Shown: one piece after another, positions 16,325 through 53,912 of the stretch
Position numbering within the stretch: the stretch's first letter is position 1
Layout: every line of letters starts with the position of its first letter
From: Planifilum fulgidum
Lineage (GTDB): Bacteria > Bacillota > Bacilli > Thermoactinomycetales > DSM-44946
Assembly: GCF_900113175.1 (NCBI RefSeq)
Contig: NZ_FOOK01000001.1
Coordinates: 56,160-120,159, forward strand
Length of the DNA: 64,000 nt
Direction: 5' to 3'
Program-made: the position numbers and the translations under genes
Notes under the pieces: model-generated
What the model saw: only the letters and a program-made list of their open reading frames with translations
Database searches by the model: none
Told to the model about the DNA's origin: nothing

Positions 16325-16631
16325 AGCGGGCGCTAAATCCCTTGATATGCCTGGATCTGTTCGCCGTTTTGCGAACACCTTCTTCATTTAATCATTTTTT
16401 AGGTAATCCGACACCTGATTCAAAAATCGAAAAACGCTGATTTTCCTTATTTGATGCGGGTTTGCGCGTTTGCGAACAACCCCCGGGGTTGCGCCGAAGC
16501 TCCCGGTGTTCGCAAAATCATCTCCATTGACAGATGGATCAAATTACAATCCCTTTCAGAGAAACCCACAACCTAAAAAAGCGACGACAGGGGCACCTTT
16601 TACTATAATCCTTGACTACAATTTCGTCAAT
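16325..16631 (-). promoter_or_regulatory. Leader of array 2 with pairing elements
   Basis: Sequence homologous to the right flanks of arrays 3, 4 and 5. It contains TTTTGCGAACACC (16367-16379), TTTGCGAACA (16469-16478) and the partner GGTGTTCGCAAAA (16505-16517). The partner can pair perfectly with either of the first two (13 bp across 125 nt, or 10 bp across a 28-nt loop). The repeat-proximal 55 nt are the most conserved part between arrays 2, 3 and 5. Confidence 0.85.
16602..16630 (-). promoter_or_regulatory. Sigma-A promoter of array 2
   Basis: Minus strand TTGACG (16625-16630), 17-nt spacer, TATAGT (16602-16607). Transcription would start near 16595, giving a leader RNA of about 270 nt before the first repeat. 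The same boxes and spacing occur at the other leaders. Confidence 0.85.
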
Positions 16632-16897
16632 TAAAAATCATCTTTTCCCCCTTCACATCAATTATTCAGATCGATTGCCCCATTAGAAATCGACGACAGT
16701 TTGAGGGCATCCAACCCAAACAGCCATCCACCAGATAGTTGCCTAGGAAAACAATTGATCTTGCACTTTTGTTTCGTAAGGACTTCGATGTCTACTTTCC
16801 CAAAAAATTGCAAAGAAAAAAAGCTGACAAGAGGAAATGGAACGCACCTGTCGTATTGCTTAAACCGGCCACATCATTGAGTCCGAGGTGGGACAAT

Positions 16898-17386
16898 ATG
16901 GATCCGCTGATGCTTGCGGACCATCTGAAACGGTTGAACAGTGGTGAGAATAATGGTTGGTATACAACAGTCGTTCAGTCAATTGCGGATTTGACTGCGG
17001 AACAGGCCCTTTGGCGACCTTCTCCCGGTATTCCTTGCATATGGGAATTAGCAGCCCACATCCATTATTGGACGATGCGGATGACGGAAGTGTTTGAGGC
17101 GATCCGCCGGGGAGAGGAACCATCCAATCGGTCAGAAACGGACTGGCCGGTCCCGGACTCTCCGGATAACGCTTCCTGGTCTTCTCTTCAAACAGAACTC
17201 GCCCGGGCAATGGCAAAGTTGTCGGATGTGGTAAAAAGCCTCAGGCCTGAGCAGCTCCTGAGTCCGACCCAGGGAGCAAACAGCCCTTCCGTACTGTATG
17301 AAATTCATGGACTGCTCGCACACACCAGCTACCATACAGGCCAAATTCTTCTTCTTCGTCGTCTACAAGGAACATGGTCCCGATGA
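16898..17386 (+). CDS. DinB/YfiT-like metal-dependent protein
   Basis: 162-residue four-helix-bundle protein of the DinB superfamily (thiol-transferase or metal-binding enzymes such as bacillithiol transferases). Putative metal ligands are His54/His56 in WELAAHIHYW and the C-terminal pair in LLAHTSYHTGQ (about 142 and 146), the usual three-histidine arrangement. ATG at 16898 is chosen because GAGGTGG lies 6 nt upstream and the conserved region starts soon after. It stands alone between array 2 and the csx1-cmr operon; no functional tie to CRISPR is implied. Confidence 0.82.
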   Translation: MDPLMLADHLKRLNSGENNGWYTTVVQSIADLTAEQALWRPSPGIPCIWELAAHIHYWTMRMTEVFEAIRRGEEPSNRSETDWPVPDSPDNASWSSLQTELARAMAKLSDVVKSLRPEQLLSPTQGANSPSVLYEIHGLLAHTSYHTGQILLLRRLQGTWSR

Positions 17387-17404
17387 ATGGTCAACCCACA
17401 GGAG

Positions 17405-17436
17405 CATCGGCTGGCCAAACGTTGGTCAGCCGATGT
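17405..17436 (+). terminator. Probable terminator after the DinB-like gene
   Basis: Inverted repeat CATCGGCTGGCC / GGTCAGCCGATG around a short loop, followed by TTGATCTTCC. The T-tract is weak. Confidence 0.5.
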
Positions 17437-18044
17437 TGATCTTCCGGATCGGAGCCTCTCTCTGTCACTACCCCAAATCACGTATGCCTCGGATCATCCG
17501 ACCTTCAACATCTCCTCCAATGGGAACTTTTGATCCATACCGCTCCCCATCCTCTCTCACTCAATTCTTTAACTCGAAAGCTCCGCCAACCTTAAAGTCT
17601 GAAATGTTATTCTCTTTGAACGGACTTTTTTAAAGGACAAAGCCTAATAAAAAACGGTTTTCATCCCCTCCACTTATGCCATGCATTTTTCACCCTTGCG
17701 TGCACTCCTATTTTAAAAAGCCGATTTTCCATTGTGCCGTGGAAAAAACGGCTGATCATACTCAATGCAATTGTCCACATGAACCACTAACTCAAAGTGT
17801 GTCAAAAAAACGAAAACAGTCGATTCGATCCGGTTTCAGAAGGATATGTTCAGGATTTGTCGAATCCGAAAAATGTCTGATACTAAAAGGATTATTTATC
17901 AAATTTCATTGATTTATTGATGGCCATCCCCTGAGATGCATCAAAGCTTATTGATTCGGACACAGGTTATTATTTGTTTTCACATGCTGATATCCATCAA
18001 ATATTTTTGATAGATCAATCGGAAACCAAAATGAAATTATAAAT
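17437..18044. other. AT-rich intergenic region before csx1
   Basis: About 600 bp with no convincing gene. The promoter of the csx1-cmr operon must lie near its right end (17900-18040); several TTGAT boxes are present but none has a TATAAT at standard spacing, so no promoter is called. Confidence 0.3.
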
Positions 18045-18064
18045 AGAGGAGGAGAGAGACAACA

Positions 18065-19417
18065 TTGAAAAAACTGCTCACCTTTCTGGGAAATGGCGAG
18101 TATGATGAAGGCATCTACACTTACAGAGGCCGAAAAGCGACAAAAAGCCGCTTCGTCCAAACGGCTATTTACGAACTATTTTGCGAAAAATTTACTGATA
18201 AAGATCAAATCATCATCTTCCTGACTGAAGAAGCAGAGTCGAAAAACTGGAAAGACAGCATCGGCGAATCTGGTAAAAATAAGGGCAAAAAATTAGAGGG
18301 AATGGAAAACGCATGGAAAAAAATCAACCCTAAACTCCTTCAACAAAACCAAATCCGAAAAGTCCGGATTCCCAGCCAACAAGATGAAGAGCACAATTGG
18401 GAGTTATTTGAGATCATCCTCAACGAGATCGACGAAGGGGACGAGATTATCTTCGATATCACCCACAGCTTCCGCTCCTTCCCCATCATGGCTTTGATTA
18501 TCCTAAACTACGCGCGGATTCTGAAAAACGCCTCACTGAAAAATCTGCTCTATGGTTGTTGGGAAATGAGAGATAAGGGACAGCCTCCCACTGCTCCCAT
18601 CATCGATATGACGGAAATGATTTCCCTGCTCGATTGGGCTTACGGTGTGGACAGCTATAAACAAACGGGTAACGCCTCCGTAATCAAAACCCTTACGAAT
18701 CAAGAAGTGGCTAGTGTCTTTCAAACAGGACAATCCTCCGACGACATGAGACGAACCGAAGCAAACGCCCTGCGCACACTTGCCAACTGTGCCCACGAAT
18801 TTCACCAAATAATGCAAACATGCCGCGCTCCGGAAATTCCTCAAAAGCTGAATAATCTCAGAAAAGCGCTGGAACAGGCGAAAACCATGGAAATACGAGG
18901 GTTCCGTCCCTTCGAAAAGCTGTTTGGAAAAATGGAAGAAAAGATCGAATACCTCACAGATCGGCCAATCATGGATGATTACTGGGCGGCAAAATGGTGC
19001 CATGATAACGGTCTCATTCAACAAGGATACACCTTGCTACAGGAGGGGATTATTACCGCAATCTGCCGAGTGATGGGGATGGAATTAGACGATGTCAATA
19101 AAAGAAAATTGGTATCTGCAGCCATAAGCGTATGGTTGAGTGAAAAAACCACTGAAGAATGGGAAGGAACAGAGGATGAAAAGTCCTTTATGAAGACGGT
19201 CATCGCTTTCTTAAACCCGTACAAGGATCTCTTAAAATCTTATGCAGGATTAACCAGATATCGCAACAGCATCAACCACGCCGGCAGAAATCGGGATAAC
19301 ATTCCTCATCAGAGATTTCGTCCGAAACTCGAAAACTACCTCAAAGACTTCCGCACCTTCTTCGAAAAGATGGATCAGCTCTATCAAGAGAAGCAGGAAG
19401 GAGCGTCCACCCGATGA
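18065..19417 (+). CDS. csx1: Csx1-family CARF-HEPN ribonuclease (TIGR02221/Csx2 type)
   Basis: 450 residues. The N-terminal Rossmann-like CARF domain has the diagnostic DITHSFRSFP (131-140), which binds cyclic oligoadenylate. The C-terminal HEPN domain carries the R-x4-H catalytic motif RNSINH (400-405). By family knowledge the protein is a non-specific RNase switched on by cyclic oligoadenylate made by Cas10. TTG start, AGGAGG 11 nt upstream. It is the first gene of the type III-B operon and its stop overlaps the cmr1 ATG, so expression is coupled to the Cmr complex that makes its activator. Confidence 0.9.
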   Translation: MKKLLTFLGNGEYDEGIYTYRGRKATKSRFVQTAIYELFCEKFTDKDQIIIFLTEEAESKNWKDSIGESGKNKGKKLEGMENAWKKINPKLLQQNQIRKVRIPSQQDEEHNWELFEIILNEIDEGDEIIFDITHSFRSFPIMALIILNYARILKNASLKNLLYGCWEMRDKGQPPTAPIIDMTEMISLLDWAYGVDSYKQTGNASVIKTLTNQEVASVFQTGQSSDDMRRTEANALRTLANCAHEFHQIMQTCRAPEIPQKLNNLRKALEQAKTMEIRGFRPFEKLFGKMEEKIEYLTDRPIMDDYWAAKWCHDNGLIQQGYTLLQEGIITAICRVMGMELDDVNKRKLVSAAISVWLSEKTTEEWEGTEDEKSFMKTVIAFLNPYKDLLKSYAGLTRYRNSINHAGRNRDNIPHQRFRPKLENYLKDFRTFFEKMDQLYQEKQEGASTR

Positions 19418-23178: not shown

Positions 23179-23206
23179 ACAATTCAGCAAAGGAGATGAG
23201 TCAGAC

Positions 23207-24148: not shown

Positions 24149-24163
24149 GGGAGGGATTCTTTT

Positions 24164-25865: not shown

Positions 25866-25927
25866 CAAGCCGGATCTCAGGAACAGGTGGATGGCACTTC
25901 CCCGCTTGCGTGATGCAAATCCAAAAA

Positions 25928-27850: not shown

Positions 27851-28194
27851 TTTGAATTCACTCTCTTTACGGTGTTCTTTTTGTAACGCTAAGGGTGGTG
27901 TAACATCAGGCGACGACCCGCTGGCAAGGCAATTTCAATCCTCTTTATTGAGGTGTTCTTTTTGTGACCCCTCAATGGCGGGCCAGAGGGAGTGGACGGA
28001 AGCACGGCGTTTCAATCCTCTTTATTGAGGTGTTCTTTTTGTGACCGGGACTTCATCACCTCCCCGATTGATACGACCAAGGGTTTCAATCCTCTTTATT
28101 GAGGTGTTCTTTTTGTGACCGTACCGTTCAAGATCGCGTTTTCAACAGCCATTGCCAGTTTCAATCCTCTTTATTGAGGTGTTCTTTTTGTGAC
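27851..28194 (-). CRISPR. CRISPR array 3 (4 good repeats, 1 decayed)
   Basis: Repeats at 27932, 28009, 28083 and 28158 (37 nt each; the first has A instead of the initial G) plus a decayed copy at 27851-27887 on the trailer side. Repeat variant: TTTATTGAGG with GTTCTTTTTGTGAC. Spacers are 37-44 nt, the longest being the oldest. Transcribed on the minus strand with the leader at the right. It lies between the cmr operon and the type I-D operon. Confidence 0.97.
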
Positions 28195-28530
28195 GGCGGG
28201 TGCTAAATCCCTTGATATGCCTGGATCTCTGCACCATTTTGCGAACACCTCCTTCATTTATCCATTTTTTAGGTGATCCGGCGCCTGCACCTAAAATCGA
28301 AAATCGCTGTTTTTCCTTATTTGACGCGGGTTTTCGAATTTGCGAACATCCCCCGGGGTTGCGCCGAAGCTCCCGGTGTTCGCAAAATCAATTCCCCTTG
28401 AGGAACCTACAAATAAAGCTGAAAAACAATTTGGAACTAAGGCCTGTTTCATCCCTTATAGTTAATATTAAATCCTGAATCACGCGTTTACATTTTTACT
28501 ATAATCCTTGAAGATCATTTCGCCAATTGA
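28195..28530 (-). promoter_or_regulatory. Leader of array 3 with pairing elements
   Basis: Homologous to the leader of array 2 over almost its full length. Pairing elements TTTTGCGAACACC (28237-28249), TTTGCGAACA (28339-28348) and GGTGTTCGCAAAA (28375-28387) are all intact. Confidence 0.85.
28498..28526 (-). promoter_or_regulatory. Sigma-A promoter of array 3
   Basis: Minus strand TTGGCG (28521-28526), 17-nt spacer, TATAGT (28498-28503). One mismatch in the -35 relative to the other leaders. Leader RNA about 295 nt. Confidence 0.8.
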
Positions 28531-30361: not shown

Positions 30362-30462
30362 ACCCTACCAACTAACCAATTGATCGCCCTTTCTTTTTCT
30401 TCAAATAGACAGGAAGTGGAACCAGAACTACGGACCACAAGCGGTGCAATGCGCAAAACGAC

Positions 30463-30592
30463 GTCTTCCCTTATGGAACACGGATTTTTCAATGTGTGAA
30501 CAACCCCCAAATCTGAGCCGAAGCTCCCGGTGCTAACAAAGAATCAATCGCGTCATTCGTAACCCTCGGAAACAAATCGAATTAAAATGGCG
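30463..30592 (-). promoter_or_regulatory. Orphan CRISPR leader relic (no array)
   Basis: Matches the promoter-side half of the leaders. The block GAACAACCCCC and GCCGAAGCTCCCGGTG (30498-30532) is nearly identical to leader 2, followed by ACAAAGAATCAAT. A decayed version of the promoter region follows (AACCCTCGGAAACAAATCGAATT at 30560-30582 in two pieces; compare AACTTCCGGAAACAATTTCG in leader 4). No repeats are found to the left, where the broken membrane genes lie. Confidence 0.7.
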
Positions 30593-32505: not shown

Positions 32506-33498
32506 TCACTTGGCCAGGAAGGGATAGTAATCTTCCATTTCCCCTTTGAGGAATTTGGCGAGCAGGATCGCCTGTTTGTGGAATATTTCCCGATAGCTCA
32601 TCTTCCGCTGCAACAGCCGATGAAACACCTCATCCTTCCTGCGGCGGTCAAAGGCCTGTAAAAAGCGCTTTCGGGCGGAATCCTTGAGGCGCGGCTCCCC
32701 CAGTTCGAAGGTGAAATCCGTAGGCTGAATCATCCCCTGGTTAATCACCTTGACGACCAGATTGTCCACCAAAATGGAGCGAAACTCTTCCATCAAATCA
32801 AAGGACAAAGATTCCCGGCCGTACCGTTCGCGATGGAGAAAGCCGATATACGGATCCAGGCCCGCCGCCTGCAGAGCACCCGTGATTTCCGCCCGCAACA
32901 GGGCGTAGCCGTAATTCAGCAGGGCGTTGACGGGATCTTTGGCCGGGCGCCGGCTGCGACCGTGAAAATCAAAGCCGCTTTCCCGGATCAACTCCGGAAA
33001 TGCTTCAAAATAGCGTTTGGCGGCCATCCCCTCGATACCCCGCAATTCATCCAAATCTTTCGCCTGCAACGCCTGTTCCATCGCTTGTTTTAAAGATCCA
33101 ATCACAGACTCGAAGTCCAGCTCCTTGCGCCTGGCAAAACGCTGCAGACTGGTCCGGGTGTTTTTCAATTTGGCCAAAACCAGATTCCGCGCAATCCGCA
33201 AGCTCGTCTCTTCCGACAAATGAGCCTGGACCTGGGCGATTCTTAACCGGACATTTCGATTTTCCGGCCCGACAAACCGGCCGATCATGCGGTTTCCCGA
33301 AAAATACACCACATCAATCCCCTTTTCGGCCATGAGCATCAGGGCATCGGTGGTCAAGGTCGAAGATTCATGAATGAAAAAGCGGGAATATTCCTGAACC
33401 CGAACTTCCTTGAGCAGGGAACGGTTTTTATATATTTTGAGTCGTTCCGATTCCTTCCGGACAAAGCAATGAGGCTCGCTCAAATAAAACGTTCCCAT
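32506..33498 (-). CDS. cas1: CRISPR integrase Cas1
   Basis: 330 residues. The C-terminal helical domain shows GIEGMAAKRYF (metal-binding Glu), GFLHRERYGRESL (His) and DLMEEFR (Glu), the three catalytic positions of Cas1. Catalyses spacer insertion with Cas2; Cas4 beside it selects PAM-containing prespacers. ATG at 33498 with GGGGAGG upstream; it overlaps the cas4 end by 19 bp. Confidence 0.94.
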   Translation of the reverse strand: MGTFYLSEPHCFVRKESERLKIYKNRSLLKEVRVQEYSRFFIHESSTLTTDALMLMAEKGIDVVYFSGNRMIGRFVGPENRNVRLRIAQVQAHLSEETSLRIARNLVLAKLKNTRTSLQRFARRKELDFESVIGSLKQAMEQALQAKDLDELRGIEGMAAKRYFEAFPELIRESGFDFHGRSRRPAKDPVNALLNYGYALLRAEITGALQAAGLDPYIGFLHRERYGRESLSFDLMEEFRSILVDNLVVKVINQGMIQPTDFTFELGEPRLKDSARKRFLQAFDRRRKDEVFHRLLQRKMSYREIFHKQAILLAKFLKGEMEDYYPFLAK

Positions 33499-34079
33499 GC
33501 CACCCTCCCCTTCAGGCGGCCTCGTTCCTGCGGCAAGCAATAGTCCACCATGCTGCACTTTTGGCACCGATGTCCTTCGTCGATTCCGGCAGGCGGCCGC
33601 TCCAGTTCATAAAGGCTCCGGATGGCTTCGATGGTTTGCCGGGTCCGTTCCCTTAGCTCCTCATCCAACATCACCTTTTCGCGCCGAAAGGAGCCGTAGT
33701 AAAAAAGGTAGCCAAAGGGGACGGCCTTTTCGATCCGCTCCTCCAAAGCCATTCCCTGGGCGCAAAGCTGCAGGTGATTGTTCTCCCATCCTGCCTGACT
33801 TCCCCGCTTGTATTCGACGGGGTAAATCATCCCGTCCGCCTCCTCGATCACATCGCACCGCACCGAAATCCACAGCCGTTCCGATCGCAAGTGGAGGGAA
33901 CGGTGAATTTGCCGTTCCCCCCGCAGTTCCCTTCCGAAGCGGTCGACGCGTTCGTGGAGCAGTTTTCCGTGGATAGTGTACGCGTTGTGGTAAAACACGC
34001 CTTCCACATATTCGTAGTAACAACGCCGGGGACAGTAGGCATAGGCATTAATGGCATGGGCCTCCACCAAGACATCCAT
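33480..34079 (-). CDS. cas4: CRISPR Cas4 exonuclease
   Basis: 199 residues, RecB-like nuclease with an iron-sulfur cluster. N-terminal CPRRC (16-20) and C-terminal HRCQKCSMVDYCLP supply the cluster cysteines; the nuclease core shows HGKLLHERVD, a DVIEEADG strand and VEYKRG. Trims and orients prespacers for Cas1-Cas2. Encoded between cas3' and cas1 with overlapping ends. Confidence 0.93.
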   Translation of the reverse strand: MDVLVEAHAINAYAYCPRRCYYEYVEGVFYHNAYTIHGKLLHERVDRFGRELRGERQIHRSLHLRSERLWISVRCDVIEEADGMIYPVEYKRGSQAGWENNHLQLCAQGMALEERIEKAVPFGYLFYYGSFRREKVMLDEELRERTRQTIEAIRSLYELERPPAGIDEGHRCQKCSMVDYCLPQERGRLKGRVAWERFI

Positions 34080-34080
34080 G

Positions 34081-36201
34081 TCACAACACCTCGCTCCGGA
34101 CGGTTTCCCACACGCTCCACAGCTGAAACGCCTCCGAATTGAAGGCGATACTCCAATCCGCCCCCTGCAGGGATTTGGCAGGATACAGCCGGAACATCGG
34201 CGGCAGGCGCAGGAGATCGGTCAATTCGCCGACGGACCGTTTGATGATGTATACAATCCAGGAAGTGCGCCTAATGGATTGGAACAACAGATTCAACTGT
34301 TCATTCAGCCCGGAGTCGTCCGATTCCAGTCGCAGGCGATCCAGGCGTACCAGCTCTTCGGCGCAACGCCCCGCTTTGGCGGGAAGCCGCCAGACCAATT
34401 TCGCCGGCTTGTCCCGTACCCCCACAGCCACCGCATACCCCAGCACACGGTCCCGGGAAAGCGCCTCAAGGTATTCTTCCTGCTCCGGTCCGGACAGATG
34501 CTCCTTCACCCGACGGACCATCTCTTCCCGATCCACAAACCGCACCCGTCGCCGACGGAGAACGAAGTGGAAATCATAACGTTTGAGTGGGCTGTCGGGA
34601 GCCGTTTCATCCCAAAACCAAAGATCAGGATGGAAAGTCTCGGATTCCTCTTCTCCCCATCTGTAAAGCTGAAATTCCAACTCATTTTGCCCGCGGAAGC
34701 TCAACACCGGCTCCAGCAGTTTCTTTTGCTTCCACTCCCGATATTGCCTCTCCTGCTCCTCAAAACCCAAACCATACATGCGCTCGCAAAGGATTCGGAT
34801 CTGCTTAAGGGCGGGGGACTGCTCCCGGTCCACGTGATGCTTTTTCTGAAGATGATACCCGTGGACCAGGTTCATGCCCCCAACCTTTTCAATGTAAGGG
34901 GAAAAATCCTGATAATATCGATACGCTCTTGTGACGATCTCTTCCAATTCCGATCGGGTCATCTCCGCATTTCCCCGATCCTGAATCTGTCCGGCCACAT
35001 GTCCCGGCACGTAAGCCCACACGTGAAGGGGCGGCTCTGGATTGGACCTGCTCCCCCGGCCAATCCGGCCTAAGCGCTGCATGAAGCTGCCGGCGTTGCG
35101 CGCTTCGAACACGAGAAAATCCTTCCAGATCTCCCCCTGAAAATCCACCCCCACCTCCACCGTGGCGGTGGCCACGGTAATGGGCTTGGCCAGGGCCTCC
35201 CGGCTCCGGCTGCGGTCAGACAAACCGTGCACCTCCCCCACATCGTATCCCTTTTCCCGGAGCGCCGCCGCCAACTGCTGGGCCTCGTGGATGGAATCGA
35301 GAATGATCAATCCCTTGGCTTTCGGCCATTCCGACAAATAATCCTCGATCTCATCCCACCTCTCCAAAATGCGCTCACCGGTGTTCCAGGCCGGCAGATA
35401 AGCGGAAACGACGTGGAGATGGACCGGCTCCAGGAAGATTCGCTCCTCGTACACGGAGGGTTTCTCCTCCTCCAGCCAGCACCGGGCCTCTTCCTGCACA
35501 TTCCAAATCGGCAGGCCGGTTCCTTCGATCAGACGGAACACCTCCGGCCGGGGCGTCGCCGATGACAAAAGGAAAACCATGCCTTTTTTCGGGAAGGAGG
35601 CCGCCATGAGGGCGATCCATTGGGCCAGCACATTCACCTGGGCGATATTGTAAAGGTGAAATTCATCAAAGGCCTGCAACACATATTCGCCGAGGCGGTA
35701 AAAAACCTCCACCGCCTTTCCCAGGCGGGGATCATACCCTTCCTTCCGGGGAGTGTACAGGCGCTCCTGGGCCACCAGCACCAAGTGGTCCGGATTGGTC
35801 AAAATCGCCCGGTGATATCGGGTGGACAATCGCTGCAACTGTTCAAGTTTGCTTTCTCCGGGCAAACGACTTTTTCGCAATTCTTCCGCGGTCCATAGGG
35901 CAATCTCGTCCCAATCTTTCAGAGGCAATCCCTTTTTGAGGGATTGAAATTGATCCTTGACGAGTTCGTTGACCGGATATACCCCGAGCGCCCGTACCCA
36001 TGAAGCCTTTGTCAAGTATCCGAAATTGGCCAAGGTTTTTCCCGCACCGGTCCGCGCCCGGTTCCAGAGGACCACCTGCCGATTTTCCTTGAGCGCCCGC
36101 TCCACCAATTTGAGTTGCACCGCTTGATGGGCGTAGGGGCGAAGGTTACCGACAAAGGGCAGATCGTAGGTTTTCCCCCTCTCCTCCAACAGGCGGATCA
36201 T
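34081..36201 (-). CDS. cas3': Type I-D CRISPR helicase Cas3' (no HD domain)
   Basis: 706 residues, superfamily 2 helicase of the type I-D (cyano) Cas3 kind. Motif I RTGAGKTLANFGYL (about 50-62), motif II DEFH in AFDEFHLYN, motif III LSSATP, motif VI FMQRLGRIGRG. No HD nuclease domain is present at either end, as expected in I-D where the HD motif is on Cas10d. Unwinds and feeds target DNA. ATG at 36201 with GGAGGTGAGGGG; starts 5 bp after the csc1 stop region. Confidence 0.92.
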   Translation of the reverse strand: MIRLLEERGKTYDLPFVGNLRPYAHQAVQLKLVERALKENRQVVLWNRARTGAGKTLANFGYLTKASWVRALGVYPVNELVKDQFQSLKKGLPLKDWDEIALWTAEELRKSRLPGESKLEQLQRLSTRYHRAILTNPDHLVLVAQERLYTPRKEGYDPRLGKAVEVFYRLGEYVLQAFDEFHLYNIAQVNVLAQWIALMAASFPKKGMVFLLSSATPRPEVFRLIEGTGLPIWNVQEEARCWLEEEKPSVYEERIFLEPVHLHVVSAYLPAWNTGERILERWDEIEDYLSEWPKAKGLIILDSIHEAQQLAAALREKGYDVGEVHGLSDRSRSREALAKPITVATATVEVGVDFQGEIWKDFLVFEARNAGSFMQRLGRIGRGSRSNPEPPLHVWAYVPGHVAGQIQDRGNAEMTRSELEEIVTRAYRYYQDFSPYIEKVGGMNLVHGYHLQKKHHVDREQSPALKQIRILCERMYGLGFEEQERQYREWKQKKLLEPVLSFRGQNELEFQLYRWGEEESETFHPDLWFWDETAPDSPLKRYDFHFVLRRRRVRFVDREEMVRRVKEHLSGPEQEEYLEALSRDRVLGYAVAVGVRDKPAKLVWRLPAKAGRCAEELVRLDRLRLESDDSGLNEQLNLLFQSIRRTSWIVYIIKRSVGELTDLLRLPPMFRLYPAKSLQGADWSIAFNSEAFQLWSVWETVRSEVL

Positions 36202-36205
36202 CCCC

Positions 36206-36880
36206 TCACCTCCACCAGAAAGCGGATTCCGGCAAAAACTCTTCCTCTACCTGCTGCCCCTCCATCTTTTTGATCCGGTATCCCTCCACCGCTTCTCCCC
36301 ATTCCGCTTCCTTCACCAATCGAGTGGGCAAAATATTGTACATGGAGGTGAAGGTGACGGGAAGTTGCGGCAGATCCTGCACATTGACCATTATGGAGGA
36401 ACTTTTGCCCTTCCCCCGCTCCAAGGCGACCTCCTCCGCTTCCAGCCGTGCCTGGCTCATCCATTTCCCGAGCCGGACGCGCGGGGGAAACGAAAGGGGA
36501 TTGTGGCTCAAGGCGTAGGTCTCAAAACAGGAACCCGGCCGCAGGCATTTGATAAATCCCCAGTTGGGATAACCCAGGCTCTGGTGACGCACCATCCACA
36601 GGGCCTCCGGTGTCGTGTTGTACTGCATAAGCCGATGCGTCACCTTAAGAGGAGACGCGGGAAAAATGTAAATCCCTTCCTCATTCAGCGGCTGCAGTTG
36701 TTTCTCATATCCCGGAGCCTGTTGTTCCTGATAGTAGGGGGAAATCGCCCAGGACAAGGCGTAGGCCAGGGCGTAATTGTGGATAAGGGGAGCGGTCTCG
36801 GCGACCTTCCCCTTCTCCATGCTGGCAAAGAACAGATAATCCTCCAGCTCGATCCGAATCCGGTACGCAAACCGTTTCAC
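36206..36880 (-). CDS. csc1: Type I-D Cascade subunit Csc1 (Cas5 family)
   Basis: 224 residues if started at the GTG that overlaps the csc2 stop (GTGA at 36877-36880), giving MKRFAYRIRIELEDYLFFAS. This Cas5-like RAMP holds the crRNA 5' handle. Conserved stretches include HNYALAYALSW, PLKVTHRLMQYN and the terminal EFLPESAFWWR. No strong RBS precedes it, so translation is probably coupled to csc2. A longer start 51 bp upstream exists but would overlap csc2 heavily. Confidence 0.88.
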   Translation of the reverse strand: MKRFAYRIRIELEDYLFFASMEKGKVAETAPLIHNYALAYALSWAISPYYQEQQAPGYEKQLQPLNEEGIYIFPASPLKVTHRLMQYNTTPEALWMVRHQSLGYPNWGFIKCLRPGSCFETYALSHNPLSFPPRVRLGKWMSQARLEAEEVALERGKGKSSSIMVNVQDLPQLPVTFTSMYNILPTRLVKEAEWGEAVEGYRIKKMEGQQVEEEFLPESAFWWR

Positions 36881-37854
36881 TTTAATTTTGCGAGATAAGC
36901 CTTTTGATCGTTTTCCAGCTCTTGCAGCCACTCCTCATTCGCCTCCTCGTTGCGCCACAGCTCGCGGACACCGTCGAGAAACGCCGCCAACTCCTCCCCG
37001 GCACACACATCAACGGGAAGATACGAGCGTTTCGCCTCCTCCTCCAGCACATCCATCACCGCCGCCTGCACATCGGACCGCTCCAGCGGAAACTCATGGA
37101 ACCTCTCCCCTCCTTTTTCCCGCAGCCGGTCGTACACCCCCTGGGTCAGGGACAGATTGGAAATCAGTTCGTTTTGTCCAAATATCAGAGCCACCACGTG
37201 ATTGTTGACAAAGCCCTGCCGGTTGCTTTCGGCGCCGTAACGGGTCGTGGTCAGAATGTTGCGCAGCACGTAAAGAAACTCGGCAGGCGTCACGTCCACC
37301 GCCGTTTCAACGGTGGGGAAAAAGACCTGGGGCCGGATGTGTTCCCGCTCGGCGAAGGCGCTGCCGGAAACCCCTCCCCGGGTGGAATCATCGATGGCGT
37401 TGAGGGTGATCGAACGCTGCATGGCCTCATAGGGACGGATCGCAAAGCCGGAATCCGTCAACACCCGGGAACGGTGAGCACCTTCCTTTTTGGTTGCCGC
37501 AAACCCGTAAATCAGGCAATCAGGGCACACTCCGCACATATCGTTCAAGAAAACACATTTTTCCCCGAGACCCCGATCCCGGTTGAAGGCCCGGCCGGTC
37601 CGCCGCTCCGGTGCGATTTGCTTGCGCTTTTGCAGAAGCACCCGGGAAATCGGCTCCGAATATTTCCTGCCGCTTCGCACCATCTCCACATCCATGGTCT
37701 GCCCTTCGGTCGTCAATACGGCCGTCGAGTCAAACTCCCTCAGGATCACCACGGAAACGTACCGTCGCATCGGATAAATCGGAATTTCTGAGGGAAGATG
37801 CGCCTCGAGACGTTTTTTCACCGGGGATTCCTGCCAGCTGATCGTTTGGCTCAT
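36877..37854 (-). CDS. csc2: Type I-D Cascade backbone Csc2 (Cas7 family)
   Basis: 325 residues. Hallmarks: a zinc-binding loop CGVCPDCLIYGFAA, RVLTDSGFAIRPYEAMQ, STRGGVSGSAFAEREHIRPQ and TRYGAESNRQGFVNNHVV. Csc2 polymerises on the crRNA spacer. ATG overlaps the cas10d stop (ATGA) and has GGAGGG 8 nt upstream. Confidence 0.94.
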   Translation of the reverse strand: MSQTISWQESPVKKRLEAHLPSEIPIYPMRRYVSVVILREFDSTAVLTTEGQTMDVEMVRSGRKYSEPISRVLLQKRKQIAPERRTGRAFNRDRGLGEKCVFLNDMCGVCPDCLIYGFAATKKEGAHRSRVLTDSGFAIRPYEAMQRSITLNAIDDSTRGGVSGSAFAEREHIRPQVFFPTVETAVDVTPAEFLYVLRNILTTTRYGAESNRQGFVNNHVVALIFGQNELISNLSLTQGVYDRLREKGGERFHEFPLERSDVQAAVMDVLEEEAKRSYLPVDVCAGEELAAFLDGVRELWRNEEANEEWLQELENDQKAYLAKLK

Positions 37855-40829
37855 ACCGTTTCCCTCCTATCGGTTTGGTTTTTCGCCGCCTGTCTTTCCC
37901 GAATCTCCTTGAGCCGTTCGAGATGGGTCTCAAAAAAAATCCCGTCGGCCAACTGGTTTTGCCTTTGGTTCAGCTTGGCGATGTTGCCGCCGCACGCATC
38001 CATGTAAAACCGGTCATAAATGAGATCCACAAACTCCTGCACAGCCTTTTCTTCAACTCGCACATACTCTCTCTTCGACGACTGTTTGGCCAACCGTTCC
38101 AGCCGTTTGAAAAGCAGCCCGCAGATCTCGCTTTTCTCCCTCCTCTCCTTGATGCCCTTGACGACCAGACGGAACAGGTTTTCATAGCGGTGGGCCCTAC
38201 CTTCCTGCGAAATGTCGGGCTTGTACAACTTGAGCGAAGCCAAGGCGATTTCCCGGGCCAGACTCACTTCCATCCCTCCCCGCATTTGATCGATTGCGCG
38301 GCAGGCCCGCACAAAGGGGTCGGCCGCATAGGCATGTTCCGTCAAGTGCCGCTTGAAGAAATGGGCACCGGCCATCGGATGCACATCCAGTTGGTGTAAA
38401 ATGATAGATACGTTTTTGTCCGTCGGTTTGGAAAAATCGAGGGGGTTCACCGTTTGATGAATTTCCCAGACACAGGCCAGGCGTTTCAGCAGATCGTTCA
38501 CTTGTCCGATCGGCACGACAAAATCCGTCGTTCCGCGCCGCTCAGGCCCCTCCAACAGCCGGGCCACTTTGTAGGGAGGGGCGTCCAGATGGATCGCATG
38601 TCGCACCTCCCGCACATCCGACATCATCAAGAAGGGCTTCTCCGTCACCCAGAGGCGAAAGCCATACAATTTGTGAAGGGAAAGTGCCGCCGACAGGGCC
38701 TTCAACCAAATCTCCTCCCGCGTTCGATCCGAAGAATTGTTGTAGTAGTCGTAGGTGAACAATAACACGTTACCGGGCGGACTGGCTTTCAGCACGTCTC
38801 CGTTCTTGGGAGGACGCCCCCGTTCTTCCATTTCCTGTTCAAAATAATCCTTGTACAATTGGAAATGATCACGCAGATGCTTCCGAAGCTTCTCCTGTTT
38901 CTCCTCCACCCAAGGATCCTGCCAAACGTGATTGATCTCCCCGCGACGGTGGACATAAATGGTGCCGAAGAAGTTCTTCAGATCATACTGCAGATCCAGC
39001 AACCTCTCTTCGGTGATCTGAAAGGAGGGAAAGGCAAACAAGTTAATCTGCCGCGACTGATCCCCTCCCGAAAAACTGTCCATGGAAAACACTTGCCGCA
39101 GAATAAACTCAAAAAAGCAGACGCCGCACCAATGCAGAGCCGCCACATCCCCCCTCTTACCGGGATCCCATCCTTTCGGCAGAATCCGGTTGCTGAACAC
39201 ATTGACGTTGTCCTGGATCACCTGCGCCTTCACCTTGGGTTCGCTTCCCGACAAGATTTTACGGTTACAAAGATTGCAGATGCGCTTTTGCGACCGTGTC
39301 TTCTTCTTGAGCAACTCCTTCATATCCAGAAGGTTTAAGTTGCGGACGGTCTCCCAGGAAACAATGAGCTGTTCCCGGAAATAGTTCTGAAGATCGTCTC
39401 CAATCTTCAATTCCTCATCGACAATTTCCATCATCTTTTCGGGCGTGATCTTTCCCTCGAGAAAATCCGCCGCTTTTTTTCGCACGGTCACCCGCCAATC
39501 CTCAATCGGCAGATGGCGGGCCGGTTTTCCGTCCACTTCGGTCTCCTGAAGAAAACGATAAGCCAACCAAATTGCTCCGTCGAACCGTTTGTTGTTGGTG
39601 TGCAGCGGATCCGGAACCCGGTTTGCAATGTCCTCAGCCGGTAGTCCGAGAAAATTTGCCAATTGAAGCAGCGCGTCCACCGCCGAAATTTTCTCCAGCC
39701 GCTGAACCAGACGCTGAAGTGCTGCCAAATACCGGGAAGTGTAGAACCACTTTTCACGAAACTCCTCGTCGAAGGAGGAATCGACCCCGAAAATCCGGTA
39801 AAGTTCGTCCAGATTCCTCGCTTTGTAGGCGGCAAGTTGGCTCTCCTTGAAATTCTTCTCGGGGAATGTCTTACTTCCTGAAGAAGATTTCATAAACAGC
39901 TCATGAAACATCCACGCAAATTCCCCGGGTGTCTGATTTACCAAAAACGCCAAGGGTTGACACTGCAAGGTGGGCCGATTGAACAACTTTTCCCAATCCA
40001 CCTGATCCGCCTCTCTGATGGAACGGAAAAACAGGTGCGTCAACTCTGCCATCAGCGAATCCTTGTCCGGCAATTCTCTCCCGTCGAAGGTGATGTACAG
40101 CGTGCCGTCCCCGAAACGGAGCCAGGGGTAATAGCCGTACCGTTTCATCAGAAGAGCCATCCCGTTGTGCAATTGCGTGGTGATCATGCCGCGCATCTCT
40201 TGGACGCGATGGCAGACGATCCGCAGGTGTTCCGTCAACTTGGGAGGCAAAACCCTCCGGAGTTTTTCCTCGAGGGAATAAATCGTCCGGTGTTCCATGC
40301 ACTCGGCGATGCCGATGATGGATGCGGTCTGATCCATCAGTTTCACCCAATCCCGAATGCCGGTCCAGGAATATCGATTGGACAAGGATCCCAAGTCCCC
40401 CAATTTGGGAGAAAAATTGGAAACCCCCGCCGCCCGCAGAAACGCAGCGGGAGGCAGATCCTCCCCCACCGCCCGGCTGAGCTCCCCTGCGACCCGCTCC
40501 AGCTCTTCCAGCGACAGGGCGTACTCGCTGGATCCCTTTTTTTCAACAGCCGAATCTTTGTGCAGATCGTGCAGCACAAAGGCGACCAGGGCGATTTTTA
40601 GTTCCTCTTCGGGGGGCTCAAAGCCGATCGATTCAAGGTGGCTCAGCAGAGCCAGACAGGCCTCCACCCCGGTGCGGATGTGATCCCACATGGACTGGTC
40701 CAGTAGATTGCGTCCCTGCCTGTACGACTTGGACTGGTTCGCCCAGTTATACGACTTGGCAATTCTCTCGGACAGATCCATTTTTTGAAACTCCAAGAGC
40801 AAGCGCTCGCTGAAAGACTTCAAATCCAA
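37851..40829 (-). CDS. cas10d: Type I-D large subunit Cas10d (Csc3) with HD nuclease
   Basis: 992 residues. The N-terminal HD domain shows DHIRTG (His50) and FVLHDLHKD (His87, Asp88), the nuclease expected to cut target DNA in type I-D. A zinc ribbon has CNLC (about 517) and HWCGVC further on. The palm region lacks a GGDD, so no cyclase activity is expected, unlike Cmr2. TTG start at 40829 behind GGGGAGGTGAAAGGGG. First gene of the type I-D operon. Confidence 0.93.
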   Translation of the reverse strand: MDLKSFSERLLLEFQKMDLSERIAKSYNWANQSKSYRQGRNLLDQSMWDHIRTGVEACLALLSHLESIGFEPPEEELKIALVAFVLHDLHKDSAVEKKGSSEYALSLEELERVAGELSRAVGEDLPPAAFLRAAGVSNFSPKLGDLGSLSNRYSWTGIRDWVKLMDQTASIIGIAECMEHRTIYSLEEKLRRVLPPKLTEHLRIVCHRVQEMRGMITTQLHNGMALLMKRYGYYPWLRFGDGTLYITFDGRELPDKDSLMAELTHLFFRSIREADQVDWEKLFNRPTLQCQPLAFLVNQTPGEFAWMFHELFMKSSSGSKTFPEKNFKESQLAAYKARNLDELYRIFGVDSSFDEEFREKWFYTSRYLAALQRLVQRLEKISAVDALLQLANFLGLPAEDIANRVPDPLHTNNKRFDGAIWLAYRFLQETEVDGKPARHLPIEDWRVTVRKKAADFLEGKITPEKMMEIVDEELKIGDDLQNYFREQLIVSWETVRNLNLLDMKELLKKKTRSQKRICNLCNRKILSGSEPKVKAQVIQDNVNVFSNRILPKGWDPGKRGDVAALHWCGVCFFEFILRQVFSMDSFSGGDQSRQINLFAFPSFQITEERLLDLQYDLKNFFGTIYVHRRGEINHVWQDPWVEEKQEKLRKHLRDHFQLYKDYFEQEMEERGRPPKNGDVLKASPPGNVLLFTYDYYNNSSDRTREEIWLKALSAALSLHKLYGFRLWVTEKPFLMMSDVREVRHAIHLDAPPYKVARLLEGPERRGTTDFVVPIGQVNDLLKRLACVWEIHQTVNPLDFSKPTDKNVSIILHQLDVHPMAGAHFFKRHLTEHAYAADPFVRACRAIDQMRGGMEVSLAREIALASLKLYKPDISQEGRAHRYENLFRLVVKGIKERREKSEICGLLFKRLERLAKQSSKREYVRVEEKAVQEFVDLIYDRFYMDACGGNIAKLNQRQNQLADGIFFETHLERLKEIRERQAAKNQTDRRETV

Positions 40830-40991: not shown

Positions 40992-42032
40992 TTAACTTTG
41001 GTACCGCTTATAAAACATCGTTTGTATCTCATCCCGCAATTCCCTTCGTTTCTCCGCCGGTTTCACCAATTCGACGGCACTTCCCCATCCCAGCACCCAT
41101 TTCTTGATCTCCATCCAGCTGGTAATCTTGGGAAACACGATCTCCCCCACCGCTCCCCTTTCTCGAATTTCCCGGATTCTTTGGTCCGGATGCCACTGCT
41201 TTTCCCGTATCCTTTCAAAGACGTTCGGATCATAGATCCTTATCACATAATCCTGCTTAACTTTACTGTGCTCCGCCTCCAACATCTGCTTGATATATTT
41301 TTCGGCGTGATTCCGTTTGTATTCCCATATATCCGCTTTCTTTCTTCTTCCCAAAGAAGACGGACGAGAGATGCGCGAAATATCGCGGATTCGATCCAAC
41401 CGGAGATGAATCAGCGGAAGATCCGGCCCATCCGGCCATTTGACTATTTTTCCGATCAGATAAAAAAGATGTTTCGCATAATAAACACCGTAAGGATCAA
41501 AATATTTGCGCCCCCCTCTGTGCTCAAATTGCAAAATTTGATCATATCGGATCGCCTCAAACACATCCTGCAGGGCACGATAAAAATGGGTGCGGTTCCT
41601 CGGGAAGCCATACTCGCTTACAAAATAAAAACCGGACCATTCCTTCAGGCGGCGCACATCCTCCTCCCGCAACACCGAATAGGTATGCTCCAACAACTCC
41701 TGATACGCCCGTTCCCCTTCGCCCTTCAACAGGGGCTGCACCTGCCTCAGGGCCAGAAAGAGATACAGCCGCACCTCCGGCGACAAATTCGCCACCGCCC
41801 GGGCAAAATTGCCCTGATAATAGCCATGTCCCCGGATAATATACTCCCTTTGATTCCGTTGATTAAACATTTTTTCGAGATATTTGATATCTCTGCGTAT
41901 TTTCTCCTGGGACACCCCGTACCTTTCCGCCGCATCCCGGATCCAATGCCGTCGGGAATCCAGCAACATCTCGGCCAACATCGACAACAAACGCTCACGA
42001 TGCCTCACATGGGCACGGTGTACCTTTGACAT
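40992..42032 (-). CDS. WYL-domain transcriptional regulator of the type I-D locus
   Basis: 346 residues. N-terminal winged helix (RERLLSMLAEMLLDSRRHWI, YGVSQEKIRRDIKYLEKMF), central WYL-like ligand domain with KYFDPYGVYYAKHLFYLIGKI, and a C-terminal WCX-type module (KITSWMEIKKWVLGWG). WYL proteins sense nucleic-acid or nucleotide ligands and commonly sit beside type I-D and III systems. RBS GAGGAG 7 nt before the ATG. Its upstream region is filled with decayed repeats of array 4, which may supply or disrupt regulatory sites. Confidence 0.85.
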   Translation of the reverse strand: MSKVHRAHVRHRERLLSMLAEMLLDSRRHWIRDAAERYGVSQEKIRRDIKYLEKMFNQRNQREYIIRGHGYYQGNFARAVANLSPEVRLYLFLALRQVQPLLKGEGERAYQELLEHTYSVLREEDVRRLKEWSGFYFVSEYGFPRNRTHFYRALQDVFEAIRYDQILQFEHRGGRKYFDPYGVYYAKHLFYLIGKIVKWPDGPDLPLIHLRLDRIRDISRISRPSSLGRRKKADIWEYKRNHAEKYIKQMLEAEHSKVKQDYVIRIYDPNVFERIREKQWHPDQRIREIRERGAVGEIVFPKITSWMEIKKWVLGWGSAVELVKPAEKRRELRDEIQTMFYKRYQS

Positions 42033-42082: not shown

Positions 42083-42525
42083 CGAAGCCATCCTCTTGCC
42101 GAAGTGTTCTCATATCGACAGGGTGTAACCGGCTTTCACATGATCAAAGTGTTCTCATATAGTAACATTTTGCAAACGAAGATGGTGCAACATTAGTCAC
42201 CTTCAATCTTCTTCACTAAGGAATTTTTAATTGTGACGGTAAAATGGCTCGCTGTCTGGATACCGTAAACCTGTGTTGCAATCCCTTTAGGTGTTTCCAT
42301 TGTGACGCAGAAATTCAAAGCGCGTTGGATGCTTTTTTTCCAAGTTTCAATCCTCTTTATTGAGGTGTTTTCATTGTGACCTGGAGCGCTATAGCCAGCG
42401 CTTTTATTTCGTTCATGTTTCAATCCTCTTTATTGAGGTGTTTTCATTGTGACAGAGCAAGGCGAGTGAGTTCAATTTCCGGACGTACGTTTCAATCCTC
42501 TTTATTGAGGTGTTTTCATTGTGAC
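42083..42525 (-). CRISPR. CRISPR array 4 (3 intact repeats, 4 decayed)
   Basis: Intact 37-nt repeats at 42344, 42417 and 42489, with the private variant GTGTTTTCATTGTGAC. Decay rises to the left: 42275-42306 (5-nt deletion), 42201-42237, 42133-42166 and 42083-42119, the last two recognisable by AAGTGTTCTCATAT. Spacers between intact repeats are 35-36 nt. Transcribed on the minus strand from the leader at the right. The decayed end reaches to within 50 bp of the WYL gene. Confidence 0.93.
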
Positions 42526-42798
42526 GGCGGGCGCGGAGTTTCTTGGTAGAACTGGTTTCCTAAGCGATTTTCCGAACACCTCCTTAAAATGACCATTTTT
42601 TAGGAAATGCTATTCTTGTTCAAAAATGATCAAAGTGCTGTTTTCCCTTGTCTGACACGGGTTTGCACGTTTCCGAACATCTCCGGGGTTTTTGCCAAAG
42701 CTCCCGGTGTTCGGAAAATCAATTTTGTCATTAACTACAAGTCCCTAAATCAATAATGTTGCATTTTCACTATAACTTCCGGAAACAATTTCGTCAAT
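42526..42798 (-). promoter_or_regulatory. Leader of array 4 with compensatory changes
   Basis: Same element order as the other leaders but with TTTTCCGAACACC (42568-42580), TTTCCGAACA (42670-42679) and GGTGTTCGGAAAA (42706-42718). The G-to-C change is present in both same-sense copies and balanced in the partner, keeping all pairs. Confidence 0.85.
42769..42797 (-). promoter_or_regulatory. Sigma-A promoter of array 4
   Basis: Minus strand TTGACG (42792-42797), 17-nt spacer, TATAGT (42769-42774). Leader RNA about 240 nt, the shortest of the four. Confidence 0.85.
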
Positions 42799-43047
42799 TG
42801 AAAAAATGAATGTACCAAGATGGACTTTTTCTGAAAATGCTCCCTGCCACTAATCCGTCATATCCGTAAAAAACTTAGATTCTCAACGCCGCTTGGAACA
42901 AGGCCTATAGATGCATTTACATGCTTATACGCTGAAATAACACGAGCAGAATTCTTTGTGCCTATACATAAGCAATCAATTCATACCCTGACAGTGATCT
43001 GCAGAATAAACTGTTCACCATCATGAGCAATATGGTCTTCTTGGCCA
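42799..43047. other. AT-rich intergenic region behind leader 4
   Basis: No gene or motif recognised. It separates the array 4 promoter from the stop codon of the secreted protein gene. Confidence 0.3.
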
Positions 43048-48514: not shown

Positions 48515-48606
48515 TCTCCGCCCTCCTCCCCTCACGGATTGAATCATTCCTCCAAATCGGTCTTTTCAGATCCCTCGGGCGGCGGGGCGAAAGCGCCCGC
48601 TGCAGA

Positions 48607-49647: not shown

Positions 49648-49867
49648 GCCTTATCTCCTCCCATTCTCTCTCCAGCGCCATCGGACGTTCATCCCATTTT
49701 GAAAAGATTGTTCTCCCTTTGTCACAAATCGCTGGTTTCTCTGTGATTGGAAACGATGAAAGGTGTGATATGCTGACCATGAACGGGGCTTCACAACCGC
49801 TGCCGTCCCGTCACGGATGCTGCCCGCGTCCGACAACGAAATCCGCAAGCCGTGAGGAGGCATCGAA

Positions 49868-50395: not shown

Positions 50396-50412
50396 ATGTG
50401 CGTTGCCGGATG

Positions 50413-51483: not shown

Positions 51484-51614
51484 TCTCCCATTCCTTCTTC
51501 GGATCGGATCACCGGGGTGCTTTTTCCCACATCCTAATCGATGACGGGAAAAGGAGTCAACCTGTCCTTTCTCTTTGCCCGCCTTTGCTTCCCGGGAAGC
51601 GTCTTCTCTTTCTT

Positions 51615-52781
51615 TCACTCCTTCACTTCCACCCATCTCTTCGTCCGGTGGCTTTCCAGAATCGCGTCGATCAACACCATGATCCGGTGGCCGTCTTCAA
51701 AAGTCGCGAAGGACGGGAATCGCCCTCCTTCCTCCGCCGCGCGTCCCTCTTTCTTTCTTCTCACTTCTTTATAGAAGTCGATCAACAGATTTTTCAAACC
51801 GTCCGGCCACCCTTCCTGATGTCCTCCGGGATAATGGGCCATCGACGCGGCCGGCTCCGAAAGGATCGACGGATCCCGGAGCAGCTCCCGGTTGGCCTCA
51901 TCCCGCTTTCCGATCCACAGGCGGTTCGGCTCCTCCTGGTCCCAGGCCAAACTCGCTTTTTCGGCGGAAATTTCGAAGTAGAGGCGGTTTTTTCGCCCGG
52001 CGCTCACCTGGGACACGGTGAAGACCCCTTGGATTCCTCCCTCGAAATGAACCATCACGATACCGCAATCCTCGGTGTGGATCGGAACCTCCTCCCGGTC
52101 CCCATCCTCGCTTTTCGCAAAGGTGGTCACCGGTCCCTTCGGCTTGTAACGGACGGGATGCACCGTCTTCAAATCGGCGAACACCTCCACGATCCGGCGT
52201 CCCAGCACATGCTGGACCGTGTCGCACCAGTGGGATCCGATATCGGCGACGGCGCGGGTGCTTCCGCTCTGCTCCGGATCGAGCCGCCAGTTATAATCCG
52301 TGTTGTAAAGCAACCAATCCTGCAGATAACCTCCCTGAACCAGATAAACCTCGCCGCATTCGCCCCCGGCGATCGCGGCCCGGGCCTCGGCCACCATCGG
52401 ATAATGGCGGTAGTTGAAACAGACGCCGCTCACTCCCTCGCTCTTCTGCGCCCATTCCATCAGCTGCCGGGATTCCCGGCTGTTCAGCGCCAAAGGTTTT
52501 TCCGACAAAAGGTGCTTGCCCGCCTCCAGCACCTCGCGGTTGAGCGGAAAATGAAGGTGATTGGGGGTGCAGTTGTGAACCGCTTCCACCTCCGGATCGT
52601 GGATCAGCTGACGGGCATCCCCGTACGCCTTGGGAATGCCGAATTCCTTTGCCACCTGTTCCGCCCGTTCCTGACGGCTTGAGGCGATCGCCACCACTTC
52701 CACCTGATTCAACCGCCTCAGCGCCTCCAAATGAGACTTGGCGGAAAAACCCGTCCCGATAATCCCGACTTTGATGCCCAA
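51615..52781 (-). CDS. Gfo/Idh/MocA-family oxidoreductase (second copy)
   Basis: 388 residues. Rossmann motif GIIGTGFSAKSHLEAL, EKP in HLLSEKPLALNSRE, CTPNHLHFPL, and DIGSHWCDTVQHVLG with the catalytic His region. Longer and only distantly similar to the copy at 48.6 kb. The substrate is probably a sugar or inositol derivative. Confidence 0.9.
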   Translation of the reverse strand: MGIKVGIIGTGFSAKSHLEALRRLNQVEVVAIASSRQERAEQVAKEFGIPKAYGDARQLIHDPEVEAVHNCTPNHLHFPLNREVLEAGKHLLSEKPLALNSRESRQLMEWAQKSEGVSGVCFNYRHYPMVAEARAAIAGGECGEVYLVQGGYLQDWLLYNTDYNWRLDPEQSGSTRAVADIGSHWCDTVQHVLGRRIVEVFADLKTVHPVRYKPKGPVTTFAKSEDGDREEVPIHTEDCGIVMVHFEGGIQGVFTVSQVSAGRKNRLYFEISAEKASLAWDQEEPNRLWIGKRDEANRELLRDPSILSEPAASMAHYPGGHQEGWPDGLKNLLIDFYKEVRRKKEGRAAEEGGRFPSFATFEDGHRIMVLIDAILESHRTKRWVEVKE

Positions 52782-52931
52782 TGCCCTTCTCCCCTTTTTG
52801 AAATGTTCTGATGAATGATTTCACCGGAACGGAAGGGAAAACTTCCTTTCCCACCAAGAAACTTTCCCTTCCCAAGACTTCAAATAACCCCTCTTTGCTA
52901 CAGGTCCGGATCCCATGCCTGCCGCTCCCGC

Positions 52932-53110
52932 TCAACCCCTTCCCTCCATCCGGATCCACATGATCTGGTAGGGGGCGAGATCCGCCTGGCCGTCGACATG
53001 CCGATTGCCGATCACATCCGTTCCGGAGGCGTCCACCTTCAACGAAATCCTCTGATCGGACACATTGACCAGCGCCAAAATCCTCTCCCCCGTCTCCTCA
53101 TGGAGAGTCG
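52932..53110 (-). pseudogene. C-terminal fragment of a GH13 enzyme (sucrose phosphorylase/amylase-like)
   Basis: About 58 codons end at TGA 52932: PTLHEETGERILALVNVS, then ISLKVDASGTDVIGN and the terminal ADLAPYQIMWIRM. This matches the C-terminal beta-domain of GH13 enzymes (LALVN-S, LAPYQ-WIR). A stop precedes it in frame and no start is present; the rest of the gene is missing and array 5 begins 140 bp further on. Confidence 0.6.
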
Positions 53111-53218
53111 GTGTTTATCTTTAAAACGGCTTTAAAACAATGTTCGTGTATATGAAGTTCGTTTGCAGTTCCGTTTGCAAAAAAGACAAACCGAGATCAA
53201 TCCACCAGACATGATGAA

Positions 53219-53241
53219 GGCCGGGTGTAATACCCAGCCCT
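53219..53241 (-). terminator. Trailer hairpin of array 5
   Basis: Minus strand GGCTGGGTATTACACCCGGCC directly behind the decayed last repeat; preceded by AAAATGAAAGAG, as at the trailer of array 1 (AAAATGAAA-GGCTGGG). T-tract weak. Confidence 0.55.
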
Positions 53242-53247
53242 CTTTCA

Positions 53248-53575
53248 TTTTAGATCCACTTTACTGAGGTGTTCTTATTGTGACAGCAACGTCTGGGCTC
53301 TGTATGAAATCCCACAGGAGCAGTTTCAATCCTCTTTATTGAGGTGTTCTTATTGTGACAGTTATGGGAAGCCCATTCTCTTCGAGGACTTCCCATGTTT
53401 CAATCCTCTTTATTGAGGTGTTCTTATTGTGACGGGAATATTCGGGTTTGCGCTTTTCGCCATCAGCGTTTCAATCCTCTTTATTGAGGTGTTCTTATTG
53501 TGACCATCCAGTTAAAGGGCGGAATGTTGGCCATTGCCGTTTCAATCCTCTTTATTGAGGTGTTCTTATTGTGAC
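53248..53575 (-). CRISPR. CRISPR array 5 (4 intact repeats, 1 decayed)
   Basis: Intact repeats at 53323, 53397, 53468 and 53539 (37 nt, private variant GTTCTTATTGTGAC) and a decayed copy at 53248-53284 at the trailer side. Spacers 34-38 nt. Minus-strand transcription from the leader on the right. The spacer at 53360-53396 has its own 8-bp inverted repeat (ATGGGAAG/CTTCCCAT). Confidence 0.96.
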
Positions 53576-53912
53576 AGCGGACGCTGAATCCCTTGATATG
53601 CTTGGACTTCTACGCCGTTTTGCGAACACCTCCTCCGAATAACCATAATTTAGTTGATTTCTCGCTTGTTTAAGAATGATCAAAGTGCTATTTTTCCTTA
53701 TATGATGCGGGTTTTCGCGTTTGCGAACAACACCGGGGTTTTTACCGAAGCTCCCGGTGTTCGCAAAATCCATTTTTTTATAGTCAAAACCCCGGATAAA
53801 ATGATAGGGGCACCACAGCAAGACAATTTTATTCTAAAGAGAAGGCCCGTAACCCGACGACAACGCCATGCGCTGTATTTACACTATAACTCTCGAGGAC
53901 AATTCCGTCAAT
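53576..53912 (-). promoter_or_regulatory. Leader of array 5 with pairing elements
   Basis: Homologous to leaders 2-4. TTTTGCGAACACC (53618-53630), TTTGCGAACA (53720-53729) and GGTGTTCGCAAAA (53756-53768) are intact; the loop differs (CACCGGGGTTTTTACCG). Confidence 0.85.
53883..53911 (-). promoter_or_regulatory. Sigma-A promoter of array 5
   Basis: Minus strand TTGACG (53906-53911), 17-nt spacer, TATAGT (53883-53888). Leader RNA about 300 nt. Confidence 0.85.

Follow-up and report, generated by a model that had tools for sequence, protein, structure and literature searches.

Leader motifs that promote CRISPR adaptation are already known, those of type I-D systems included. In cyanobacterial type I-D, three leader motifs enhance spacer uptake, according to a review describing Kieper et al. 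2019 (PMC10212523). The type I-F leader, which IHF folds, carries inverted-repeat motifs with which Cas2 makes contact (PMC12259127). In the type I-A system of Sulfolobus islandicus, efficient adaptation depends on a motif far out in the leader (-143 to -94) to which Csa3a binds, and type I-A Cas1 binds stem-loop DNA without sequence specificity; the same source (PMC9456107) describes as largely unknown, outside types I-E and I-F, how an integrase locates the leader end of an array where no IHF-like bender is known.

The leaders described here come from a stretch of 64,000 nucleotides (hereafter the window) and from related genomes, and they carry three matching boxes, termed A, B and C, of which A is inverted. 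They resemble those carrying Synechocystis type I-D motifs I-III, known to us by the review's description, in the number of motifs, in the three-box layout of the pSYSA leader (see below) and in leader length, which is 202-220 bp there and approximately 192 bp here; unlike boxes A-C, however, motifs I-III are not called copies of one another, or co-changing, in the covered part of that review (PMC10212523). With type I-F the leaders share inverted copies at set positions, there used in folding the leader for integration (PMC12259127), although the Cas proteins differ. With type I-A they share a distant leader motif, there required for efficient adaptation, but the subtype and the reader are others, and the covered part of that source describes no three-copy layout (PMC9456107). 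The preliminary description of this DNA had held that no such leader structure was known for type I-D, a statement which the three reported I-D motifs oblige us to qualify (PMC10212523, part covered). For the three-copy layout with concerted change of letters we found no description in the literature covered, the scope of which is limited on the key leader studies.

Three boxes in the leaders of the window

The arrays in question consist of 37-nt repeats and lie on the minus strand, as do the leaders, boxes, promoters, type I-D genes, WYL gene and leader remnant listed in this section: array 2 (15778-16324, eight good copies), array 3 (27932-28194, four copies), array 4 (42344-42525, three copies) and array 5 (53248-53574, five copies, the distal one decayed). 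Pattern matching placed sigma70-like promoters upstream of leader 2 (AATTGACG..TATAGT, 16602-16632), leader 4 (42769-42799) and leader 5 (53883-53913). The type I-D operon cas4-cas1-cas3'-csc1-csc2-cas10d (32506-40829) is found near leader 4; within it cas1, the sole Cas1 found in the genome, occupies 32506-33567, and cas4, cas3', csc1, csc2 and cas10d lie within 33480-40829. The nearest named relatives of this Cas1 are those of Thermoactinomyces mirandus (80%) and Seinonella peptonophila (69%), and a Bacillota MAG has one at 94%. An HTH-WYL/WCX protein (40992-42032), a candidate reader or regulator, adjoins leader 4. The window also holds a type III-B operon with cmr2, cmr3, cmr4, cmr6 and a TIGR02221 protein.

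Exact sequence matching revealed boxes A, B and C in all four leaders of the window (2, 3, 4 and 5). The preliminary description had listed three elements in the same order in leaders 2, 3 and 5, and this was confirmed exactly: in plus-strand coordinates TTTTGCGAACACC begins at 16367, 28237 and 53618, TTTGCGAACA at 16469, 28339 and 53720, and GGTGTTCGCAAAA at 16505, 28375 and 53756. Read on the minus strand, all arrays show the 5' to 3' order A (TTTTGCGAACACC), B (TGTTCGCAAA), C (GGTGTTCGCAAAA) and 37-nt repeat. Leader 2, whose 193 bp (16325-16517, as delimited by the alignment of 32 leaders) run from box A up to the first repeat, thus contains box A, TTTTGCGAACACC in transcript sense, at 16505-16517, the core of box B, TGTTCGCAAA, at 16469-16478, and box C, GGTGTTCGCAAAA, at 16367-16379. 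The corresponding positions of A, B core and C are 28375-28387, 28339-28348 and 28237-28249 in leader 3, and 53756-53768, 53720-53729 and 53618-53630 in leader 5.

In leader 4 the plus-strand matches are TTTTCCGAACACC at 42568, TTTCCGAACA at 42670 and GGTGTTCGGAAAA at 42706, so that box A reads TTTTCCGAACACC (42706-42718), the core of box B TGTTCGGAAA (42670-42679) and box C GGTGTTCGGAAAA (42568-42580). Compared with the other leaders, each of its boxes carries the same single G to C substitution (GCG to CCG). The compensated pairing earlier ascribed to this leader stands, whereas the "double change" does not, there being one substitution per copy in three copies. Similarly, of the perfect pairing claimed between one partner and either of the other copies, the A:C part holds, while A:B extends over 10 bp only; the next base of B, opposite the second-last C of A, varies between G, T and A without compensation. 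A decayed leader remnant at 30452-30540, recognised by repeat family and sequence and with no adjacent 37-nt repeat, comprises the A-B region only, has no array, and has largely lost its A:B matching.

Two further features of these leaders were observed. Nearly all leaders have GCTTCG inside the A-B loop (16479-16504 and equivalents), in the same sense as B and 22 bp ahead of it, and this may be a fourth, degenerate copy of the box. In addition, the 37-nt repeat (16288-16324) contains GAACACCTC, whose reverse complement is box C with its flank (GAGGTGTTC, 16367-16379); this complementarity is lost in Seinonella, in which boxes and repeat both differ.

Geometry of homologous leaders

A comparative set of 32 full leaders from 10 genomes was assembled via relatives of Cas1 in the order and their surroundings. 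Boxes are present in 12 leaders of the window's own genome, some of them outside the window, and further ones occur in the same genus. A, B and C are all kept in 32 of the 32 full leaders, so that their occurrence exceeds what chance would give. The gap between A and B is 24 in every one, that between B and C is 88 in 22 and 86, 87 or 89 in the remainder, and the distance from C to the repeat is 42 in 29 of 31. Sequence identity between genomes in the middle of the B-C interval averages 0.34, against 0.27 expected from composition; with the spacing nearly constant and the intervening sequence nearly random, length is kept where sequence is not. Across the 32 leaders, the leader emerges as a unit of approximately 192 bp that starts at box A, ends at the first repeat and holds several boxes at set positions. 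Box A forms its outer edge in differing contexts, following either a degenerate 30-nt repeat or, at a short distance, an upstream reading frame.

By pattern match, the sigma70-like promoter and box A are separated by 82 bp to over 600 bp. This variation arises because an entire 30-nt-repeat array intervenes in loci C2, C21 and C41. These composite loci (L002, L004 and L008, on contigs C2, C21 and C41 of genome G000) have one sigma70-like promoter followed by a 30-nt-repeat array (GTTTGTAGGTTACCTATGAGGGATTGAAAC) and then by the A-B-C leader with its 37-nt-repeat array. Leaders 2-5 of the window look like collapsed composite loci, box A being immediately preceded by a degenerate 30-nt repeat.

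A scan of the genome allowing one mismatch revealed no further paired boxes away from leaders, and exact-pattern scans of genome-contig and viral-contig collections gave no match to the A-B element; cas1, used as a query against viral contigs, had no relative there. A two-mismatch search for GCGAACACCGGGAGC in relatives was discarded, as a reversed control indicated that chance matches dominated its output.

Concerted change of the three copies

Covariation was examined with our own R-scape-like test (not R-scape itself), in which the tree was built without the boxes and the null redistributed substitutions per branch. Among 18,336 column pairs, A5:C5 covaried most strongly, at a level for which a null alignment is expected to yield approximately 0.1 pairs; A5:B5 covaried more weakly. 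Only position-5 pairs were individually notable, most other box positions varying too little, and the CGA/TCG core is invariant in 96 of 96 boxes. By parsimony, the changes at A5 and those at C5 fall on the same three branches, of which B5 shares two: B5 changes in genome G015 alone, A and C in G015 and in genome G030. B mismatches A in both G030 leaders, in which A equals C. Watson-Crick matching within leaders is 0.958 for A:C and 0.919 for A:B, and it falls to 0.840 and 0.802, respectively, when boxes are swapped between genomes. The boxes of Seinonella (TTTTCCGACGGTC and its partners) consist of other letters and still match one another. A and C look like the most tightly coupled copies. 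The earlier proposal that the pairing is under selection is borne out by compensated changes in many leaders.

Two candidate features were rejected. A UUCG tetraloop inside A-B was dropped, its closing stem not being kept in G020 and G022, and a link between the CCG variant and AAAACACC repeats was abandoned, as G001 has CCG with AGAACACC repeats.

Related layouts in other phyla and in 30-nt-repeat leaders

In the type I-D leader of Synechocystis pSYSA, TTTGGCATACC (inverted) is found at -194, GGGTTGCCAAA at -158 and GGTTTGCCAAA at -55. A blind layout scan, with dinucleotide shuffles as the null and a geometry wide enough for a shifted box A or B, was applied to 15 type I-D leaders of other phyla (cyanobacteria, one Chloroflexota plasmid and one Verrucomicrobia MAG; for Anabaena sp. 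90 the cas-adjacent leader was used). The same three-box layout was recovered at p<=0.01 in 10 of these, the pSYSA leader among them, and at p<=0.05 in 12, with no signal in three, whereas controls in cas1 coding sequence gave a best p of 0.049 in 11 tests. The letters of the boxes are lineage-specific across phyla. A weak three-box pattern (p=0.02) was also seen in the leader of the pSYSA type III-B array (L144 41105), which is not type I-D, and some 30-nt-repeat leaders reached p=0.02 as well. The scan is not entirely specific, and type I-D may not be the only type to have this layout.

The 30-nt-repeat leaders have an inverted repeat of their own, TGTCGTCGACCTCC / GGAGGTCGACGACA around a shared GCAAAAACCCC loop. 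It is mostly perfect, with a loop conserved across the order (L145, L147, L148, L151, L153, L155, L156, L157, L158, L162-L164, L168, L169, L172 and L173), and is also present in genomes in which no type I-D-like Cas1 was found. Compensated changes were observed here too: CCTCC/GGAGG to CCCCC/GGGGG, GACC to GATC, and, in G011, a box changed throughout. In the window's own genome its position is upstream of the predicted promoter, as placed by promoter consensus rather than by mapped starts, and A lies 108 bp from the -35 box in five leaders; the inverted repeat is therefore outside the transcript of that promoter.

A probable DNA element for spacer integration

The boxes are probably a DNA-level leader element of the type I-D module that serves spacer integration (CRISPR adaptation). 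As the three copies mostly change together across distant bacteria, we regard a DNA docking site, used in the insertion of new spacers, as the most likely identity of the three-copy signal, rather than an RNA switch. The precedents in type I-D, I-A and I-F leaders point to adaptation, and on this ground we propose that the boxes act as sites of docking or bridging through which the leader is folded for the type I-D integrase. Either Cas1-Cas2(-Cas4) or a DNA-binding partner would bind or bridge the boxes; so bound, they would fold the leader and place the integrase at the leader-repeat junction, and their letters would co-evolve with their reader.

One observation counts against a reader of the DNA letters. 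The sole Cas1 of the genome serves both G-type and C-type leaders, and a reader tolerating both letters should allow mixtures, yet the copies match within each leader. Symmetric cooperative binding, or structural (cruciform) recognition, could explain such matching under a single Cas1. As leaders whose boxes differ in their letters share a single Cas1, complementarity itself may matter, and we tentatively consider, as a possibility that we think doubtful, that it is the signal, the leader being recognised via an extruded DNA hairpin, a cruciform or bridged inverted sites. Letters could then diverge from lineage to lineage, and even among the leaders of one genome with its single Cas1, provided that the copies match, and both of the order's repeat families (37-nt and 30-nt) would follow the same principle.

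The preliminary description had left the choice between mutually exclusive RNA hairpins, acting as a switch or attenuator, and a DNA inverted repeat bound by proteins; of these, the DNA site for adaptation proteins fits best. Were the element to act as RNA, A would pair with B or with C in the leader transcript, and the exclusive hairpins would influence how the pre-crRNA is transcribed, how stable it is or how it is processed. The A-B segment indeed folds strongly (z -2.0 to -7.5), whole-leader folds pick A:C or A:B, leaders 2, 4 and 5 of the window have a promoter ahead of box A, and letters change while complementarity stays. We nevertheless judge this explanation unlikely. The related inverted repeat of the 30-nt leaders lies upstream of its predicted promoter, the distance from promoter to box A is variable, A:B is broken in G030, and spacing is nearly constant within nearly random sequence. 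Moreover, the distinct non-pairing cases of A:B and A:C include 5 G-U against 11 A-C, although selection on RNA would favour G-U, and an Rfam search gave no match at the gathering score. An intrinsic terminator was dropped for either stem, no T run being present after B or C.

An operator function, with the boxes as DNA sites through which a transcription regulator, for instance the WYL protein, would control expression of the array or of the cas genes, appears more improbable still. It gains from the WYL/HTH gene beside leader 4 and from the repression of the Synechocystis I-D system by a WYL protein, as reported in the review (PMC10212523). Against it, box A keeps a fixed distance to the repeat and a variable one to the promoter, 30-nt arrays stand between promoter and box A in three boxed leaders, paired boxes are confined to leaders in the one-mismatch scan, and only one I-D-linked WYL gene is present for two box variants. 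In the remaining scenario, matching is not selected at all, and template switching or recombination between repeats would homogenise the copies. In its favour, inverted repeats are able to correct one another when DNA is replicated, and deletions between B and C did happen (C21a, C39). Homogenisation, however, predicts the best match for the close pair A-B, contrary to the higher value of A:C; in G030 it is A and C that agree while B differs, and the layout persists across phyla. We consider it the least probable explanation, and very improbable.

Under the preferred reading of a DNA docking site, the three-copy element, with its inverted member, fixed geometry and lineage-specific letters, offers a concrete, mutable target in type I-D systems. 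Its natural variants (G-type, C-type, Seinonella and cyanobacterial) permit swap tests of the reader protein, and the element would aid in finding leaders and in orienting type I-D arrays.

Truncated leaders and array size

Three leaders carry a partial element: C21a and C39 are without the B-C interval, and one G001 leader has C only. The arrays behind these truncated leaders have 1-2 repeats, compared with 2-14 behind 13 intact leaders (p=0.007), which indirectly favours a role of the element in adaptation. C21a retains a perfect A:B/C hairpin and still has a short array, indicating that the hairpin alone is not enough. The short arrays of the three could also result from decay of the whole locus.

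Outside the arrays, the window contains two diverged copies of a coding stretch (2750-3596 and 13443-14289; 72-81% identical), 10,693 bp apart, which flank a gene for a DagR-like sigma54 regulator (9927-12674).
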